This document shows, in pieces, positions 58,188-63,978 of a stretch of 64,000 bases of DNA. The notes beneath the pieces are model-generated. The model made no database searches, was not told where the DNA came from, and saw only the letters and a list, made by a program, of their open reading frames with translations. Numbering within the stretch: position 1 is the first letter of the stretch; each line of letters opens with the position of its first letter. The stretch covers positions 124,001 to 188,000 of the forward strand of contig NZ_JAEQNA010000006.1 of NCBI RefSeq assembly GCF_016722895.1, in the 5' to 3' direction. A program made the translations under genes and the position numbers. This DNA is from Ramlibacter aurantiacus (GTDB taxonomy: Bacteria; Pseudomonadota; Gammaproteobacteria; Burkholderiales; Burkholderiaceae_C).

Positions 58188-59468
58188 CTAGCCCCTGGCC
58201 CCCAAGCCTTGGTATTGCCCCCGCGGCCGTATCGGGAAGCCCGCCAGGCGCTGTTCCATCACATGCGCGATCCAGCCGGCCGTGCGGCCGATGCCCCAGA
58301 GCGCGCTGGCCGTGCGCGCGGGCATCTGCCAGGCGATCGCCATCACCACCAGCGCCAGTTCGATGTTGGGCTCGATGCCCAGCCGCTCGCGCGCACGATC
58401 GACGAAGCGGTAGGCCAGGTCGGCCGGGCGGGACTTGGGTGCGATGCGTTTCGTCAGCTCGATCAGGCATGACGCGCGCGGATCGCCCCGCGGGTAGATC
58501 TGCAGCGCGAAGCCGGGCAGGCGTTCGCGGCGCATCTCGGCGTCGGCCAGGCGCTGGTCGATCTCAGCCACGGTGCCCAGGCCGCAGATCAGGTCTTCAG
58601 CCGCGTCGCACCCACCCGCGAGCTGGGTGCCCTGGTGGGCCGCCAGGGCCGCGACCACGCAGGCGTGCAGCGTGGCGCCGGTGGACGCCGCGATGCGGGC
58701 GGCGAAGGTGCTCGACGACAGCTCATGGTCGGCGCCCAGGATGAGGGCCGCCTGGATCGCCTGCTCGGCGGGGTCGGTCACGCGCACCTGCAACGAACGC
58801 AGGATGTGCTGGGCCAGCGGCCGGTCGCCGTCGACCGGCGCGAAGCGCCGCTGCGGCCCCAGGATGCCGCAGCAGCCGGCGAAGGCGAACAGCATCTGAC
58901 GCGCGAAACGCATGGTGGAGTTGCTGCGCAGCTCCTCGGCCAGCGAGCCGCCGCCCAAAGCCGTGGCCGCGATGGAGAACACGCGCATCATCCGCGGCTT
59001 GACCCGGCCGTCCTGCAGCATGCCGTCGAGCGCCCGAGTCAGGTCCACGTGCGGCGGCTCCACCGGCCAGGTGTGGGCGCCGTCGGGCAGCACGCCCGTC
59101 CACAGCAGCTCCGCCACGCTCTCGAACACGCCCGGATGCCGCACGAGGTCGGTGGCCAGGTGGCCGCGGTAACTCGGCCCGGCTTCACTGATCTCGCACA
59201 CGCTGGTCGTCATCACCGGCTGGCCCCAGCGCATGGCCGTGGCGGCCACCGCGCCGTGGCCCTGGCGGGCGCTGCTGCGGATGCGCAAGCCCTCCACGTC
59301 TTCCCGCAGGTAGCGGTTCTCCTTCTGCTGCGACAGGCGCACCGGCTTGAGCAGGCCGCGGCTGACGTAGGTGTAGAGCGTGGCCGGCTTGATGCCCAGC
59401 ACGACACTCGCCTCCTGCGAGCTCAGGAGGTCTTTTCGGTCCGGCGAGGGCGAGGGATCAGGCGACAT
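58188..59468 (-). CDS. HTH domain fused to a catalytically degenerate citrate synthase-like domain
   Basis: A 426-residue protein. Residues 12-65 form a MerR/excisionase-type HTH (SSQEASVVLGIKPATLYTYV, then RYLREDVEGLRIRS). The rest is citrate synthase fold with GADHELSSSTFAAR, YPRGDPRA and ASALWGIGRTAGWIAH conserved. Ungapped comparison with E. coli citrate synthase puts L283 at His264, L322 at His305 and E370 at Asp362, so all three catalytic residues are changed, while H248 and R331 of the oxaloacetate site remain. It is more likely a ligand-sensing DNA-binding regulator than an enzyme. It diverges from the SDR-TRAP operon at 59615, its probable target. Confidence 0.85.
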   Translation of the reverse strand: MSPDPSPSPDRKDLLSSQEASVVLGIKPATLYTYVSRGLLKPVRLSQQKENRYLREDVEGLRIRSSARQGHGAVAATAMRWGQPVMTTSVCEISEAGPSYRGHLATDLVRHPGVFESVAELLWTGVLPDGAHTWPVEPPHVDLTRALDGMLQDGRVKPRMMRVFSIAATALGGGSLAEELRSNSTMRFARQMLFAFAGCCGILGPQRRFAPVDGDRPLAQHILRSLQVRVTDPAEQAIQAALILGADHELSSSTFAARIAASTGATLHACVVAALAAHQGTQLAGGCDAAEDLICGLGTVAEIDQRLADAEMRRERLPGFALQIYPRGDPRASCLIELTKRIAPKSRPADLAYRFVDRARERLGIEPNIELALVVMAIAWQMPARTASALWGIGRTAGWIAHVMEQRLAGFPIRPRGQYQGLGARG

Positions 59469-59504
59469 GGAGGCAGGGCCGGCAAGGGGCTAGGGGTTTA
59501 CGTA

Positions 59505-59552
59505 GATCGATCATCGAATCGAGATTGATCCGATATCGACAGGTCCTAGACT
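59505..59552 (+). promoter_or_regulatory. Promoter and dyad operator of the SDR-TRAP operon
   Basis: TTGATC (59525-59530) and TAGACT (59547-59552) are 16 bases apart. Upstream and overlapping the -35 lies GATCGAT (59505-59511) with its imperfect mirror ATTGATC (59524-59530), in an AT-richer stretch full of TCGAT/ATCGA. This is a good place for the HTH-citrate-synthase protein to bind. Confidence 0.45.
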
Positions 59553-59614
59553 AGCCGCGAGACAGGCGTGGCGTCAATGCGCAAGCCACCGCCCAACGAC
59601 AAGGAGACCCGCTC

Positions 59615-60388
59615 TTGAACCAGCCATCCCATCAGCCACGCACCTCGCGCGTGATCGTGATCACCGGCGCCGCCCAGGGCCTGGGCCGGGCCTATGCGTT
59701 GCGCTTCGGGCGCGAGGGCCATCGCGTCGTCGCCCTGGACATCCACGGCGAGGCGGTGCAGCGGGTGGCGGCCGAGATCGAGGCCGCCGGCGGCGAGTGC
59801 CTGGCCCTCACGGCCGACATCGGTGACGAGGCCAGCGTGGCCGATGCGGCCCGCCGCATCGACGAGCGCTTCGGCCGCTGCGATGTGCTGGTGAACAACG
59901 CGGCCATCTTCTCCACCATCAAAATGCGCCCGTTCGAGCAGATCCCGCTGGACGAGTGGATGCGCGTGCTGCACGTGAACATCACCGGCACCTTCCTCAT
60001 GACCCGCGCCCTGGTGCCGCTGATGCGCCGCAACCGCTGGGGCCGCGTGATCCACGTGTCCTCGGCCGCCGTGGCCATGGGGCGGGCGCACTACCTGCAC
60101 TACACCACCTCCAAGGCGGCCCTGATCGGCATGACCCGGTCGATGGCGCGCGAGCTCGGCGCCGACGGCATCACCGTGAACGCGCTGCTGCCGGGTGCCA
60201 CCGACACCGAGGTGCCGCGCGAGACGGTGACGCCCGCGCAGAAGCAGGCGCAGATCGCGATGCGCAGCATCCCGCGCGAGGAAGGCCCGCAGGACCTGGA
60301 AGGCGTGGTGGCCTTCCTGGCTTCGGACGACAGCGGCTTCGTCACCGGCCAGTCGCTGGTGGTCGACGGCGGCCTGAGCTTCCTCTGA
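59615..60388 (+). CDS. Short-chain dehydrogenase/reductase (SDR)
   Basis: A 257-residue classical SDR: VIVITGAAQGLGRAYALRFG, NNAAIFSTIKM, the serine in IHVSSAAVAMGRA, Y-x3-K in LHYTTSKAALIG and the C-terminal FVTGQSLVVDGGLSFL. The start is TTG at 59615 with AAGGAG eight bases ahead; no ATG fits. First gene of an operon with a TRAP transporter and an isochorismatase-family amidase, so it probably oxidises the imported hydroxy acid or a breakdown product. Confidence 0.87.
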   Translation: MNQPSHQPRTSRVIVITGAAQGLGRAYALRFGREGHRVVALDIHGEAVQRVAAEIEAAGGECLALTADIGDEASVADAARRIDERFGRCDVLVNNAAIFSTIKMRPFEQIPLDEWMRVLHVNITGTFLMTRALVPLMRRNRWGRVIHVSSAAVAMGRAHYLHYTTSKAALIGMTRSMARELGADGITVNALLPGATDTEVPRETVTPAQKQAQIAMRSIPREEGPQDLEGVVAFLASDDSGFVTGQSLVVDGGLSFL

Positions 60389-60456: not shown

Positions 60457-61431
60457 ATGAAGATGTTCAAGCAACTCGGGCGCGTCGCGCTCGCCTGCAC
60501 GCTGGCCGCCGGCATCGGCCAGGCCGCCGCGCAGGAGGCCACCATCCGCGCGGTGAGCGCCTGGCCCGAAGGCAACTTCTTCTCGATGAACTTCGAGAAG
60601 TTCATCCAGCGCGTGAACGAGCAGGGCAAGGGCGTCATCAAGATCAACTATCTCGGCGGCGGCCAGAAGGTCATGCCTCCGTTCGAGGTGGGCAACGCCA
60701 TCAAGTCCGGCGTGGTCGACATGGCCAACGTGACCGGCAACTTCTACACCAACCTGCTGCCCGAGTCGGACGCGCTGTCGGTGAGCACGGTGCCCGTGCA
60801 GGAGTGGCGCAAGAACGGTGCCTACGACTACATCAACAAGCTGTGGGGCCAGAAGCTCAATGCCCATTACCTGGGCCGCGCCATCGACAACATGCCCTAC
60901 CACCTGTTCCTGAAGAAGCCGGTGAGCAAGCCCGACCTCTCGGGCATGCGCCTGCGCGGCATCCCGATCTACCGGGAGTTCTTCCAGAGCATGGGCGGCA
61001 CCGTGCTCACGATCCCGCCGGGCGAGACCTACACCGCGCTGGAGCGCGGCGTGATCGACGGCTACGGCTGGCCGGTCTCGGGCATCTTCGACCTGAGCCT
61101 GCAGGAGCACACGCGCTTCCGCGTCGAGCCCGGCTTCTACAACACCGAAGTCGGCGTGCTGGTGAACCTCAACACCTGGAACCGCCTGAACGCCAAGCAG
61201 AAGCAGGTGCTGACCGACGCCGCAGTCTGGATGGAGAACCTCAACCTCGACAACGCCAAGATGTGGGAAGCGGAGAAGAAGAAGCAGGCCGAGGCCGGCA
61301 TCAAGGCGATCGAGTTCCCGCCGGCCGAGGCGGCCGCCTATTCCAAGCGCGCCACCGAGACCATCTGGAGCAGCATCAACCAGCGCAGCCCCGAGCACGG
61401 CCCCAAGCTGCGCCAGCTGCTGACCCGCTGA
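60457..61431 (+). CDS. TRAP transporter periplasmic receptor (DctP type)
   Basis: A 324-residue exported binding protein. The signal peptide ends GIGQAAAQEA; then come IRAVSAWPEGNFFSMNFEKF, the DctP ligand region MRLRGIPIYREFFQSMGGTV, TIPPGETYTALERGVIDGY and GFYNTEVGVLVNLNTWNRL. The arginine that salt-bridges the ligand carboxylate should be in GMRLRG. It gives the TRAP system specificity for an organic acid. AGGAG precedes the ATG. Confidence 0.92.
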   Translation: MKMFKQLGRVALACTLAAGIGQAAAQEATIRAVSAWPEGNFFSMNFEKFIQRVNEQGKGVIKINYLGGGQKVMPPFEVGNAIKSGVVDMANVTGNFYTNLLPESDALSVSTVPVQEWRKNGAYDYINKLWGQKLNAHYLGRAIDNMPYHLFLKKPVSKPDLSGMRLRGIPIYREFFQSMGGTVLTIPPGETYTALERGVIDGYGWPVSGIFDLSLQEHTRFRVEPGFYNTEVGVLVNLNTWNRLNAKQKQVLTDAAVWMENLNLDNAKMWEAEKKKQAEAGIKAIEFPPAEAAAYSKRATETIWSSINQRSPEHGPKLRQLLTR

Positions 61432-61438
61432 TCGCCGC

Positions 61439-61978
61439 ATGAACGCACCCGCCACTGGCCTGGCCAATCGCTTCGACCGCGGCTGGGGTCACCTGCTCAC
61501 CGCGCTGGGCCTGGTCGCCTGCGCGCTGATCGCGGTGATGGTCATCGTGATCTGCGCCGACGTGGCGGTGCGCAACCTCCGCCTGGGCAACGTGCCCTGG
61601 GCGCCCGAGGTGGCCGAGTACACCCTGTACCTGTCCACCTTCCTGGCCGCTCCCTGGTTGCTGCGCCAGGGGGCGCATGTGCGGATGGACATGGTGCTCA
61701 AGGCGCTGCCTTCGGGCATGGCCTGGGTGCTGGAGCTGGTGGCCGATGCGATCGGCATCCTCGCCAGCCTCACCCTGATGGTGGCCAGCGGCAACGCGGT
61801 CCTGGCCAGTGCGCGCCAGGGTTCGCTGATCTTCAAGATCTTCGTGTTTCCCGAATGGTGGCTGCTGGCGCCGGCCGCCGTGATCTTCGGTGTGCTGGCC
61901 GTCGAATTCGCCTTGCGCATGCGCCGCCAGTGGCTGGGCCCGCGCACCGTGCGCGAGGAAGCCACCTCGGTGGCCTGA
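61439..61978 (+). CDS. TRAP transporter small membrane subunit (DctQ type)
   Basis: A 179-residue protein with four hydrophobic helices, starting after about 15 polar residues (LLTALGLVACALIAVMVIVI) and including VPWAPEVAEYTLYLSTFLA and LLRQGAHVRMDMV, the typical DctQ pattern. It scaffolds the large permease in the inner membrane. It begins 7 bases after the receptor gene. Confidence 0.9.
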   Translation: MNAPATGLANRFDRGWGHLLTALGLVACALIAVMVIVICADVAVRNLRLGNVPWAPEVAEYTLYLSTFLAAPWLLRQGAHVRMDMVLKALPSGMAWVLELVADAIGILASLTLMVASGNAVLASARQGSLIFKIFVFPEWWLLAPAAVIFGVLAVEFALRMRRQWLGPRTVREEATSVA

Positions 61979-62003: not shown

Positions 62004-63320
62004 GTGGACTGGACCCTGAGCCTGAGCCTGCTGCTCGGATCGGTGATGCTGCTGATGATGATCGGGCTGCCGGTCGCATTGGCCTTCCTGGTGACCAACG
62101 TCATCGGCGCCTTCATCTTCATGGGCGGGGTGGCCGGCGTCGACCAGCTCGCGCGCAACTCGATCGCCTCGGTGATCAGCCTGTCGCTCACGCCCATTCC
62201 GCTGTTCATCCTGATGGGCGAGGTGCTGTTCCAGACCGGCCTGGCGCTGAAGGTGATCGACGGCTTCGACCGCATCATCCACAAAGTGCCGGCGCGGCTG
62301 CCGGTGGTCTCGGTCGTGGCGGGCACCGCGTTCTCGGCCGTGTCGGGCTCGACCATCGCCACCACGGCGATGCTGGGCCGCTCGATGACGCCGCTGATGC
62401 TGGAGAAGAACTACCACCCGTCGCTGGCCATGGGGCCCATCATCGCCATCGGCGGGGTGGACATGCTGATCCCGCCGTCGGCGCTGATCGTGCTGTTCGG
62501 CAGCCTCGCCAACATCTCCATCACCAAGCTGCTGTTCGCCGGCATCGTGCCGGGGCTGCTGCTGTCCGTCGCGTTCGTGGCCTACATCGTGGGATACGCG
62601 CTGCTGGTGCCTGGCAGCTCTCCCAAGGACGATGAGGGCACGCGCTATCACGGCTGGCAGAAGTGGCGGCCGCTGGTCGTGTATGTGCTGCCGCTGATGT
62701 CGATCTTCGTGGTCGTGATCGGGGCCATGTCCACCGGCATTTCCACGCCCACCGAGGCAGCGGCACTGGGCGCGGCGGCCACCGTGCTGCTGGCGGCGTG
62801 CTACCGCGCGCTGACCTGGCAGAACATGCTCTCGTCGCTCAAGGGCACGGTGCAGATCTCGGGCATCGTGCTGTTCATCATCGTGGGCGCTACGGCGTTC
62901 TCGCAGCTGCTCGGATTTTCCGGTGCGACCAACGGCTTTCTCGGCGCCATCGGCAAGATGGAGCTGTCGACGAACATGCTGCTGCTGTCCATGATCGTGG
63001 TGCTGATCGTGCTGGGCTGCTTCGTCGATCAGGTCAGCATGATGCTGCTCACGCTGCCGTTCTTCATGCCGCTGGTGCTGGGCGCGCAGATCGACACCAT
63101 CTGGTTCGGCGTGTTGTTCCTGATCTCCATGCAGCTGGGGCTGATGACGCCGCCATTCGGGCTGCTGCTGTTCACGATGAAGAGCGTGGTGCCCTCGCAC
63201 ATCAGCCTGCCGCAGGTGTTCCGTTCGGCGCTTCCGTTTGTGGCCATCGGTGTGCTGATGCTGGTGGCCGTCTTCTTCTACAGCCCCATTGCCACCTGGT
63301 TGCCCAATCTGCTGGGTTGA
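62004..63320 (+). CDS. TRAP transporter large membrane subunit (DctM type)
   Basis: A 438-residue permease with about twelve membrane segments: MMIGLPVALAFLVTNVIGAF, AVSGSTIATTAMLGRSM, GGVDMLIPPSALIVLFGSLA, TPTEAAALGAAAT and GLMTPPFGLLLF, all hallmarks of the sodium-driven DctM subunit. The start is GTG 62004 with GAAAGG nearby; the frame upstream overlaps DctQ and is noise. It works with DctP and DctQ. Confidence 0.91.
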   Translation: MDWTLSLSLLLGSVMLLMMIGLPVALAFLVTNVIGAFIFMGGVAGVDQLARNSIASVISLSLTPIPLFILMGEVLFQTGLALKVIDGFDRIIHKVPARLPVVSVVAGTAFSAVSGSTIATTAMLGRSMTPLMLEKNYHPSLAMGPIIAIGGVDMLIPPSALIVLFGSLANISITKLLFAGIVPGLLLSVAFVAYIVGYALLVPGSSPKDDEGTRYHGWQKWRPLVVYVLPLMSIFVVVIGAMSTGISTPTEAAALGAAATVLLAACYRALTWQNMLSSLKGTVQISGIVLFIIVGATAFSQLLGFSGATNGFLGAIGKMELSTNMLLLSMIVVLIVLGCFVDQVSMMLLTLPFFMPLVLGAQIDTIWFGVLFLISMQLGLMTPPFGLLLFTMKSVVPSHISLPQVFRSALPFVAIGVLMLVAVFFYSPIATWLPNLLG

Positions 63321-63330
63321 AGGGCGTGAG

Positions 63331-63978
63331 ATGACGAACCAAAGCGAACAGGACTTCTTCCGCGCGCGCGGCTTCGGCCAGGCCATCGGCTTCGGCCGCA
63401 GCCCGGCCGTGCTGGTGATCGACATGATCCGCGCCTTCAGCGACCCGGCCATGATGCTGGGCGCCAACCTGGACGACGAGATCGCCGCCACGCGCACGCT
63501 GCTGGCCGCCGCCCGCAAGGCCGGCTGGCCGGTGATCTTCTCCACCGTGGCCTACGACGACCTCGACTTCAAGGACGCCGGCATCTGGGCCCTGAAGCAA
63601 AAGGGCGTGATGACGCTGCGCGCGGGCACGCCCGAAGTCGAGCTCGACCCGCGCCTGACGCGCGAGCCCGGCGACAGCTGGCTGGTGAAGAAATACGCCT
63701 CGTGCTTCTTCGGCACCGACCTGCCGTCGCGGCTGGTGTCGCGCGGGGTGGACACCCTGCTGCTGGCCGGCTGCACCACCAGCGGCTGCGTGCGCGCCAC
63801 CGCCGTCGATGCCTGCCAGAACGGCTTCAGGCCCATGGTGGTGCGCGAGTGCGTGGGCGACCGCTCGCGCGCCGCACACGAGCAGAGCCTGTTCGACCTG
63901 CAAGCCAAGTACGCCGACGTGGTCGGCCTCGACGACGCCTGCCGCTATCTCGAAACCACACCCCGCCCACCGCGATGA
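63331..63978 (+). CDS. Isochorismatase-family amidase (N-carbamoylsarcosine/maleamate-amidase-like)
   Basis: A 215-residue cysteine hydrolase with aspartate in VLVIDMIRAFSDP, lysine in LVKKYASCFFGTDL and cysteine in LLAGCTTSGCVRATAVDA, followed by FRPMVVRECVGDRS. The wording is closest to N-carbamoylsarcosine amidase and maleamate amidohydrolase, which release ammonia from an amide. It closes the TRAP operon, so an imported or derived amide acid is a likely substrate. It differs from the isochorismatase-family protein at 37273 in motif detail. Confidence 0.88.
   Translation: MTNQSEQDFFRARGFGQAIGFGRSPAVLVIDMIRAFSDPAMMLGANLDDEIAATRTLLAAARKAGWPVIFSTVAYDDLDFKDAGIWALKQKGVMTLRAGTPEVELDPRLTREPGDSWLVKKYASCFFGTDLPSRLVSRGVDTLLLAGCTTSGCVRATAVDACQNGFRPMVVRECVGDRSRAAHEQSLFDLQAKYADVVGLDDACRYLETTPRPPR

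Follow-up and report, generated by a model that had tools for sequence, protein, structure and literature searches.

The gene at positions 58188 to 59468 (minus strand) of the window, as we call the whole 64,000 nt stretch of Ramlibacter aurantiacus DNA analysed here, raises the question whether a protein with the fold of a citrate synthase works as an enzyme or as a regulator. The open reading frame encodes 426 aa with an HTH_17 and a Citrate_synt domain, and its AlphaFold model has a pLDDT of 91.7. Residues 13 to 68 form a winged helix-turn-helix (HTH; 59265–59432, minus strand), the second helix of which is near-invariant (T30, L31, Y32, Y34, V35, S36, R37, G38). Residues 81 to 426 (58191–59228, minus strand) have a citrate synthase fold according to domain, sequence and fold matches. 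HTH_17 scored above its cut-off in the N-terminal domain, and the structural neighbours of the HTH model are proteins of the MerR/Xis type (SoxR, CarH, BldC, Xis), all of them weak matches.

The first-pass annotation had claimed that the entire catalytic triad is replaced in this fold behind the HTH. Alignment with GltA and PrpC by phmmer and MAFFT, together with the fold match, confirmed this: the positions of GltA His264, His305 and Asp362 are occupied by Leu283 (58620–58622), Leu322 (58503–58505) and Glu370 (58359–58361). Residues of the oxaloacetate site, in a pocket assessed from the alignment alone, are all present, namely His248 (GltA His229; 58725–58727), Arg331 (GltA Arg314; 58476–58478), Arg395 (GltA Arg387; 58284–58286) and Arg414 (GltA Arg407; 58227–58229; all seven codons on the minus strand). 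Misaligned catalytic positions were ruled out, since both methods agreed residue by residue and the fold match spans the entire domain. The window protein is about 25% identical to PrpC and type II citrate synthases of solved structure (6s6f, 3tqg, 3o8j), and differs from these enzymes by the added N-terminal HTH and by the replacement of His264, His305 and Asp362. It stayed below the cut-off of every NCBIfam model for citrate synthase or citryl-CoA lyase, the best score being 125.2 bits for TIGR01800 (cut-off 421.3). Considering that the triad is replaced and that an ordinary gltA is found elsewhere in the genome, it is unlikely that the window protein acts as a citrate synthase, and the condensation was probably lost with the triad.

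Eight citrate-synthase-like genes are present in the genome: the ordinary GltA gene (L001), three genes without an HTH (L005, L007, L008), which by eye appear citryl-CoA-lyase-like, and four HTH-fused genes. The latter are the window gene and the paralogues C9, C22 and C1, with Leu, Thr, Val and Leu, respectively, at the position of His264, and each of them is divergent to a different catabolic gene set. As read from the translations, C9 seems to face a Bug protein, an aldehyde dehydrogenase (ALDH), Rieske subunits, a 4,5-dihydroxyphthalate-decarboxylase-like protein and a Gfo/Idh/MocA oxidoreductase; C22 a Bug protein, a TPP enzyme and a cupin; and C1 a gentisate-dioxygenase-like protein, an NADPH-FMN-reductase-like protein and an ABC importer. 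A transposase-like ORF (assigned by eye, L128:4284-4559) adjoins the C9 paralogue on a short contig of 15.7 kb.

A scan of genome contigs that combined patterns for the HTH and for the citrate synthase domain returned at least 534 relatives, and the 78 best matches to the window protein were kept. Further loci were collected by searching 200 genomes of the family, 398 of the phylum and 250 of the order as well as plasmid records; a member at an E value of 1e-45 or better was present in 23 of the 398 phylum genomes and in 13 of the 250 order genomes. Of 65 members subjected to a domain scan, 64 had HTH_17 and all had Citrate_synt. We aligned 144 non-identical HTH-fused members, in which His264 is absent from 93 and present in 51; these and the following family frequencies rest on the best 78 of at least 534 relatives and are therefore not those of a random sample.

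Members with His264 also have His305 (50/51) and Asp362 (51/51). The His264-less set is defined by the residue at 264 and includes L102, which lies outside the nested clade of the tree described below. Leu, Ile, Val or Thr replaces His264 in 87/93 of these members, His305 is kept in 57/93 and Asp362 in 3/93, and Glu stands at 362 in 68/93. Arg314 is retained in 93/93, Arg387 in 90 of 91 and Arg407 in 88 of 90 ungapped sequences, while the position of His229 holds His in 78 and Asn in 15. The HTH helix at residues 28–36 is near-invariant, and each of the eight residues named above is conserved to at least 99% in His264-less members and to 86–100% in the others. The carboxylate-binding arginines are among the best-conserved positions of the family, and F320 and Y325 in the loop near position 305 are conserved to at least 95%.

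Asn at the His229 position combined with Thr/His/Ala at 264/305/362 occurs in Pandoraea (L064, L066-L068, L071-L074, L076, L081) and also in L052, L053, L080 and L126. At 12 Thr/His/Ala loci the first divergent gene comes from one protein cluster (cluster 5), probably of MFS transporters, and this common neighbour suggests that these members read a different ligand. Some genomes contain several HTH-fused copies, partly clustered (G056 C1 at ~4.05–4.27 Mb, G672, L031), and one HTH-fused copy of G056 has an internal TAG. Outside Proteobacteria and Myxococcota, where no search was targeted at a phylum, few members were found, on a Deinococcus plasmid (L124) and in a Geobacter-labelled MAG (L056). 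Plasmid homologues are annotated as 'citrate synthase', 'citrate/2-methylcitrate synthase' or 'citrate synthase family protein'. The homologue on Acidovorax carolinensis plasmid pACP3.2 (L120:11992-13214) is annotated as two overlapping genes just 3′ of an IS5 transposase gene, and the copy on the Massilia WG5 plasmid (L121) as a single gene.

A tree was built from 106 of 174 rows that remained after thinning at ≥72% identity, and was rooted on canonical citrate synthases; fragments, L120, L060, L022, L106 and L005 were excluded. This was a quick tree without bootstrap, and seven trait columns were retained in the alignment while building it. All 95 HTH-fused rows form a single clade (SH-aLRT 100), in which a clade of 60 rows, none of them with His264, is nested (SH-aLRT 99). 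Next to the latter are five intact rows (four from Myxococcota, one from the taxonomic family of the window), which together with it make up a 65-row clade (95). The remaining 30-row clade (96) is intact except for L102 (Asn at 264, Val at 407) and L138 (Asn at 305). The most parsimonious history has 2 changes at position 264, 4 at 362 and 5 at 305. Since the His264-less clade is nested beside intact HTH-fused members, the tree indicates that the HTH fusion is older than the loss of the triad, which followed later and mostly once. The initial assumption that the fusion was accompanied by catalytic loss has to be corrected accordingly: some HTH-fused members still have a complete or almost complete triad, and part of these have a related operator.

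An HTH-less citrate synthase gene on the opposite strand adjoins 22 of the 51 members with His264 versus none of the 93 members without it (flanks mostly ~1.5 kb). All 19 HTH-less partners that aligned over the site have His264, His305 and Glu at 362, and three more were cut off. Pairs of this kind were seen at L069, L075, L086, L097, L123, L134 and L138-L150. The two proteins of a pair possibly form a heteromer with split roles, or a regulator may lie opposite its target enzyme. His264-less members instead adjoin catabolic genes: the 56 first divergent genes that were scanned comprise 12 that match MFS_1, 11 SDR and 9 TctC, with small numbers for Rieske, cupin, ALDH and other families; of the 26 families matched, the 25 that were listed include none for citrate synthase.

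Divergent to the window gene lies an operon on the plus strand. It starts with an SDR oxidoreductase gene (59615–60388; syntenic in the orthologues), followed by genes for the TRAP substrate-binding protein DctP (60457–61431, start codon inferred), the small permease DctQ (61439–61978), the large permease DctM (62004–63320) and an isochorismatase-fold hydrolase (63331–63978), all assigned by family matches. Past the end of the window (L127) the operon continues with an ALDH, a PYC/OADA carboxyltransferase, BCCP and a biotin carboxylase. At L127:4332-9834, a three-part biotin-dependent carboxylase (PYC/OADA carboxyltransferase, separate AccB-like carrier, biotin carboxylase) thus stands behind the ALDH and the TRAP importer.

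The order SDR, DctP, DctQ, DctM divergent to the regulator gene was found in 8 loci of the window's clade (L009-L013, L016, L017, L020), the SDR, DctP and DctM proteins of which are 68–82% identical, L009 and L010 being near copies. In L021 the SDR-TRAP gene set is present and interrupted by an insertion, L022 (a 4-kb contig) contains SDR and DctP only, L019 has SDR alone beside the regulator, L023 has SDR and ALDH with a different gene in front, and in L018 just the hydrolase cluster adjoins the regulator; for L014 and L015 little or no sequence is available on the operon side. Over the family, 57 of the 75 non-edge loci that were scored (85 loci minus 8 without a gene from the GC-based caller and minus 2 at contig edges) have a divergent first upstream gene, a raw share from loci that are not independent, 10 of them being Pandoraea.

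The intergenic region contains a predicted operator (59505–59531, no strand assigned) that is composed of the palindrome GGATCAATCTCGATTC (59516–59531) and a third half-site, ATCGATC (59505–59511). Conservation in orthologues, uniqueness in the genome and unseeded motif discovery support it. Upstream regions of the window's clade have GAATCAATCTCGATTC in common, followed by rTCGATC. Of 15 upstream regions, 14 (12 of 13 distinct ones) have the hexamer AGTCTA (on the other strand) at a distance of 21–22 bp to the operator, in the form AGTATA in L017 and AGTGTA in L021; L015 is the exception, without a hexamer and also without an operator match (10/16). Read toward the SDR gene, the arrangement is TTGATT or similar, 16–17 bp and TAGACT (hand-counted), which we infer to be a promoter with its −35 box inside the palindrome. 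In the window the putative boxes of the SDR operon are TTGATC (−35; 59525–59530, plus strand; hand-counted, with fixed spacing across orthologues) and TAGACT (−10; 59547–59552, plus strand; a conserved hexamer in orthologues). Counted by hand from this −10 box, the palindrome extends from ~−43 to −28 with its centre at ~−35, and the whole element 59505–59531, centred near −41, from ~−54 to −28. Operator and boxes fall in the stretch 59505–59552 to which the first-pass annotation had drawn attention. A consensus promoter and terminator scan of 59440–59640 found no sigma-70 site or anything else, so the proposed promoter derives from conservation alone.

With up to 3 mismatches allowed over its 21 specified positions, the window operator pattern has a single match in the 5.1-Mb genome, and with up to 2 mismatches one match in the window (mean of shuffles 0.14). 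A related site, TTGATCAATCTTGATT, is found 22 bp before the start of C22 and has no second match in the genome when up to 2 mismatches are allowed; the region upstream of C9 has a looser operator match and that of C1 half-sites only.

For motif analysis over the family, 143 upstream regions were thinned to 117, comprising 22 of Leu/Leu-or-Ile members, 53 of other His264-less members (L102 among them before thinning) and 42 of intact members. Unseeded EM on each subset resulted in ATCAATCTCGATTCnATAATCGAT for the 22, ATTGATCAATATTGATT for the 53 and TCAATCTTGAT for the 42, which are related operators of about the form TTGATCAATnTTGATTnnnnAATCAAT. With the threshold set at the 99% level reached in 300 controls, namely upstream regions of neighbouring genes, the motif trained on the 53 others matched 16/42 held-out intact and 12/22 Leu/Leu regions, the motif trained on intact members 28/53 others and 9/22 Leu/Leu, and the motif trained on Leu/Leu members 8/42 intact and 19/53 others. 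A seeded version compared with dinucleotide shuffles gave, for the corresponding sets, 16/42, 10/22, 28/53, 10/22, 9/42 and 19/53. The predicted operator was not seen in every member: it is found in a minority of intact members (16/42, 8/42) and in about half of the others. The TTGATCAATnTTGATT-type operator upstream of HTH-fused genes is present at the window, and it transfers between groups in part of the members. A common operator across members fits the near-invariant HTH helix, and the occurrence of the same kind of HTH and in part of a related operator in intact members argues that DNA binding is independent of the loss of the triad.

We consider it very likely that the window protein is a one-component regulator with the citrate synthase fold as sensor, which binds the dyad and induces the divergent operon in response to a ligand. 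The proposal that the fold is no longer a citrate synthase and controls the SDR-TRAP operon was made before, and comparison of sequences supports it: the conserved predicted operator lies in the putative promoter, the divergent synteny, the arginines and the HTH helix are maintained, and a separate gltA is present. The single nested His264-less clade, the four divergent HTH-fused paralogues and purifying selection point in the same direction. The regulator is probably a repressor, and its ligand a small 2-oxo/dicarboxylic acid that occupies the site where oxaloacetate used to bind. Its N-terminal winged HTH would bind the TTGATT/TCGATT-type dyad in the 146-bp intergenic region, and the citrate synthase fold, with condensation lost, would be the sensor and probably also the dimerisation domain, so that the two HTHs of the dimer would face the dyad. 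Since the three arginines and His229 are kept and the catalytic residues are lost, the pocket should remain able to bind such an acid, and the most likely one is an intermediate from the SDR-TRAP-hydrolase-ALDH-biotin carboxylase pathway. The arginines could also be retained for structure instead of ligand binding. Closure of the two domains is known for citrate synthases; closure on the ligand would shift the geometry or spacing of the two HTHs, the operator over the −35 box would be released, and the operon would be induced.

Repression is mildly preferred over activation for the sole reason that the operator covers the putative −35 box. The position of the whole element, centred near −41, would also suit a class II activator that recruits RNA polymerase from beside or upstream of the −35 box once ligand is bound. 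The boxes are weak and escaped the consensus scan, a further point for activation, but the palindrome itself covers the −35 box and the ordinary spacer of 16–17 bp does not call for untwisting of the MerR type; we regard activation as a tentative second possibility. Promoters controlled by MerR have a spacer of 19–20 bp, and such an over-long spacer was not found here; the hand-counted spacer of ordinary length, with the operator over the −35 box, rules out the classic MerR mechanism. The nature of the ligand can be read in another way, too. F320 and Y325 are kept in the loop near position 305 and a biotin-dependent carboxylase stands at the end of the operon, as would fit a sensor of an acyl-CoA instead of a free organic acid, with the CoA loop in use and the acid site vestigial. 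The strong conservation of the carboxylate-binding arginines speaks against this, as does the match of the carboxyltransferase to PYC_OADA, the pyruvate carboxylase/oxaloacetate decarboxylase kind, and we find an acyl-CoA rather doubtful. Enzymes of this kind have keto acids as substrates; the carboxyltransferase of the operon suggests that the pathway handles a keto acid, and thereby weakly favours a keto acid as ligand.

Residual catalysis was considered as well. Asp362-to-Glu may leave some chemistry in relatives with His305 (57/93), and intact relatives share the HTH and partly a related operator, both of which would agree with a bifunctional trigger enzyme that combines some reaction (e.g., a lyase step) with DNA binding. 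For the window protein itself this is improbable, considering that no triad residue is left and that all NCBIfam citrate synthase and citryl-CoA lyase cut-offs were missed. The loss of catalytic residues would also be expected of a decaying, functionless citrate synthase gene, but dN/dS values of 0.02–0.125 in 7 of 9 pairs indicate purifying selection, and open frames as well as a conserved predicted operator are found across many genera. Purifying selection together with the intact frames of relatives rules out a pseudogene, and we give decay practically no credence. A regulator that represses the operon until a small acid is bound is the reading that we prefer.

The N-terminal domain may be of the kind found in MerR/Xis-type proteins (SoxR, CarH, BldC, Xis), to which HTH_17 and weak structural neighbours point; the sensor differs from that of MerR proteins by its citrate synthase fold. 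In MocR/PdxR-GabR regulators a winged HTH is fused to an aminotransferase fold, so that an enzyme fold serves as ligand sensor, and their genes are often divergent from the regulated genes. The window protein can be likened to them in the plan of an enzyme-fold sensor behind an N-terminal HTH. It differs in that the fold is unrelated, with no aminotransferase fold found here, and in HTH class and ligand chemistry. PutA and BirA are trigger enzymes in which a metabolic enzyme fold is coupled to operator binding; the window protein, unlike these, is without catalytic residues, and by analogy the intact HTH-fused relatives might be trigger enzymes of this kind. Among the open-access titles listed, we found none on HTH-fused citrate synthases. 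A citrate synthase-like protein of Streptomyces is mentioned as a possible target of regulation and not as a regulator (PMC9739823).

The HTH-fused proteins appear to be a new family within the known class of enzyme-derived one-component regulators, with an unusual sensor fold that stems from central metabolism. On balance we think that they represent an unrecognised family of transcription factors, which arose from a MerR/Xis-type HTH and an active citrate synthase divergent to a second one. One lineage would have lost the triad, kept the arginines and become local switches of catabolic operons mainly in Burkholderiales, with positions 264/305/362 (LLE, LIE, VHE, IHE, THA, others) setting the acid that is read. 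Database names such as 'citrate synthase' imply an enzyme, while the residues and the predicted operator point to a regulator. If this is true, a large number of genes now listed as citrate synthases, most of them in Proteobacteria, would be pathway switches, and metabolic reconstructions that count those genes as enzymes would be wrong. Many catabolic operons, among them phthalate-like and gentisate-like ones, would have a local regulator from this family, and its members could possibly supply biosensor parts for organic acids. The family offers a readable series from enzyme to HTH-fused enzyme to pseudo-enzyme regulator, together with an operator, in which the change from enzyme to sensor can be tested step by step.
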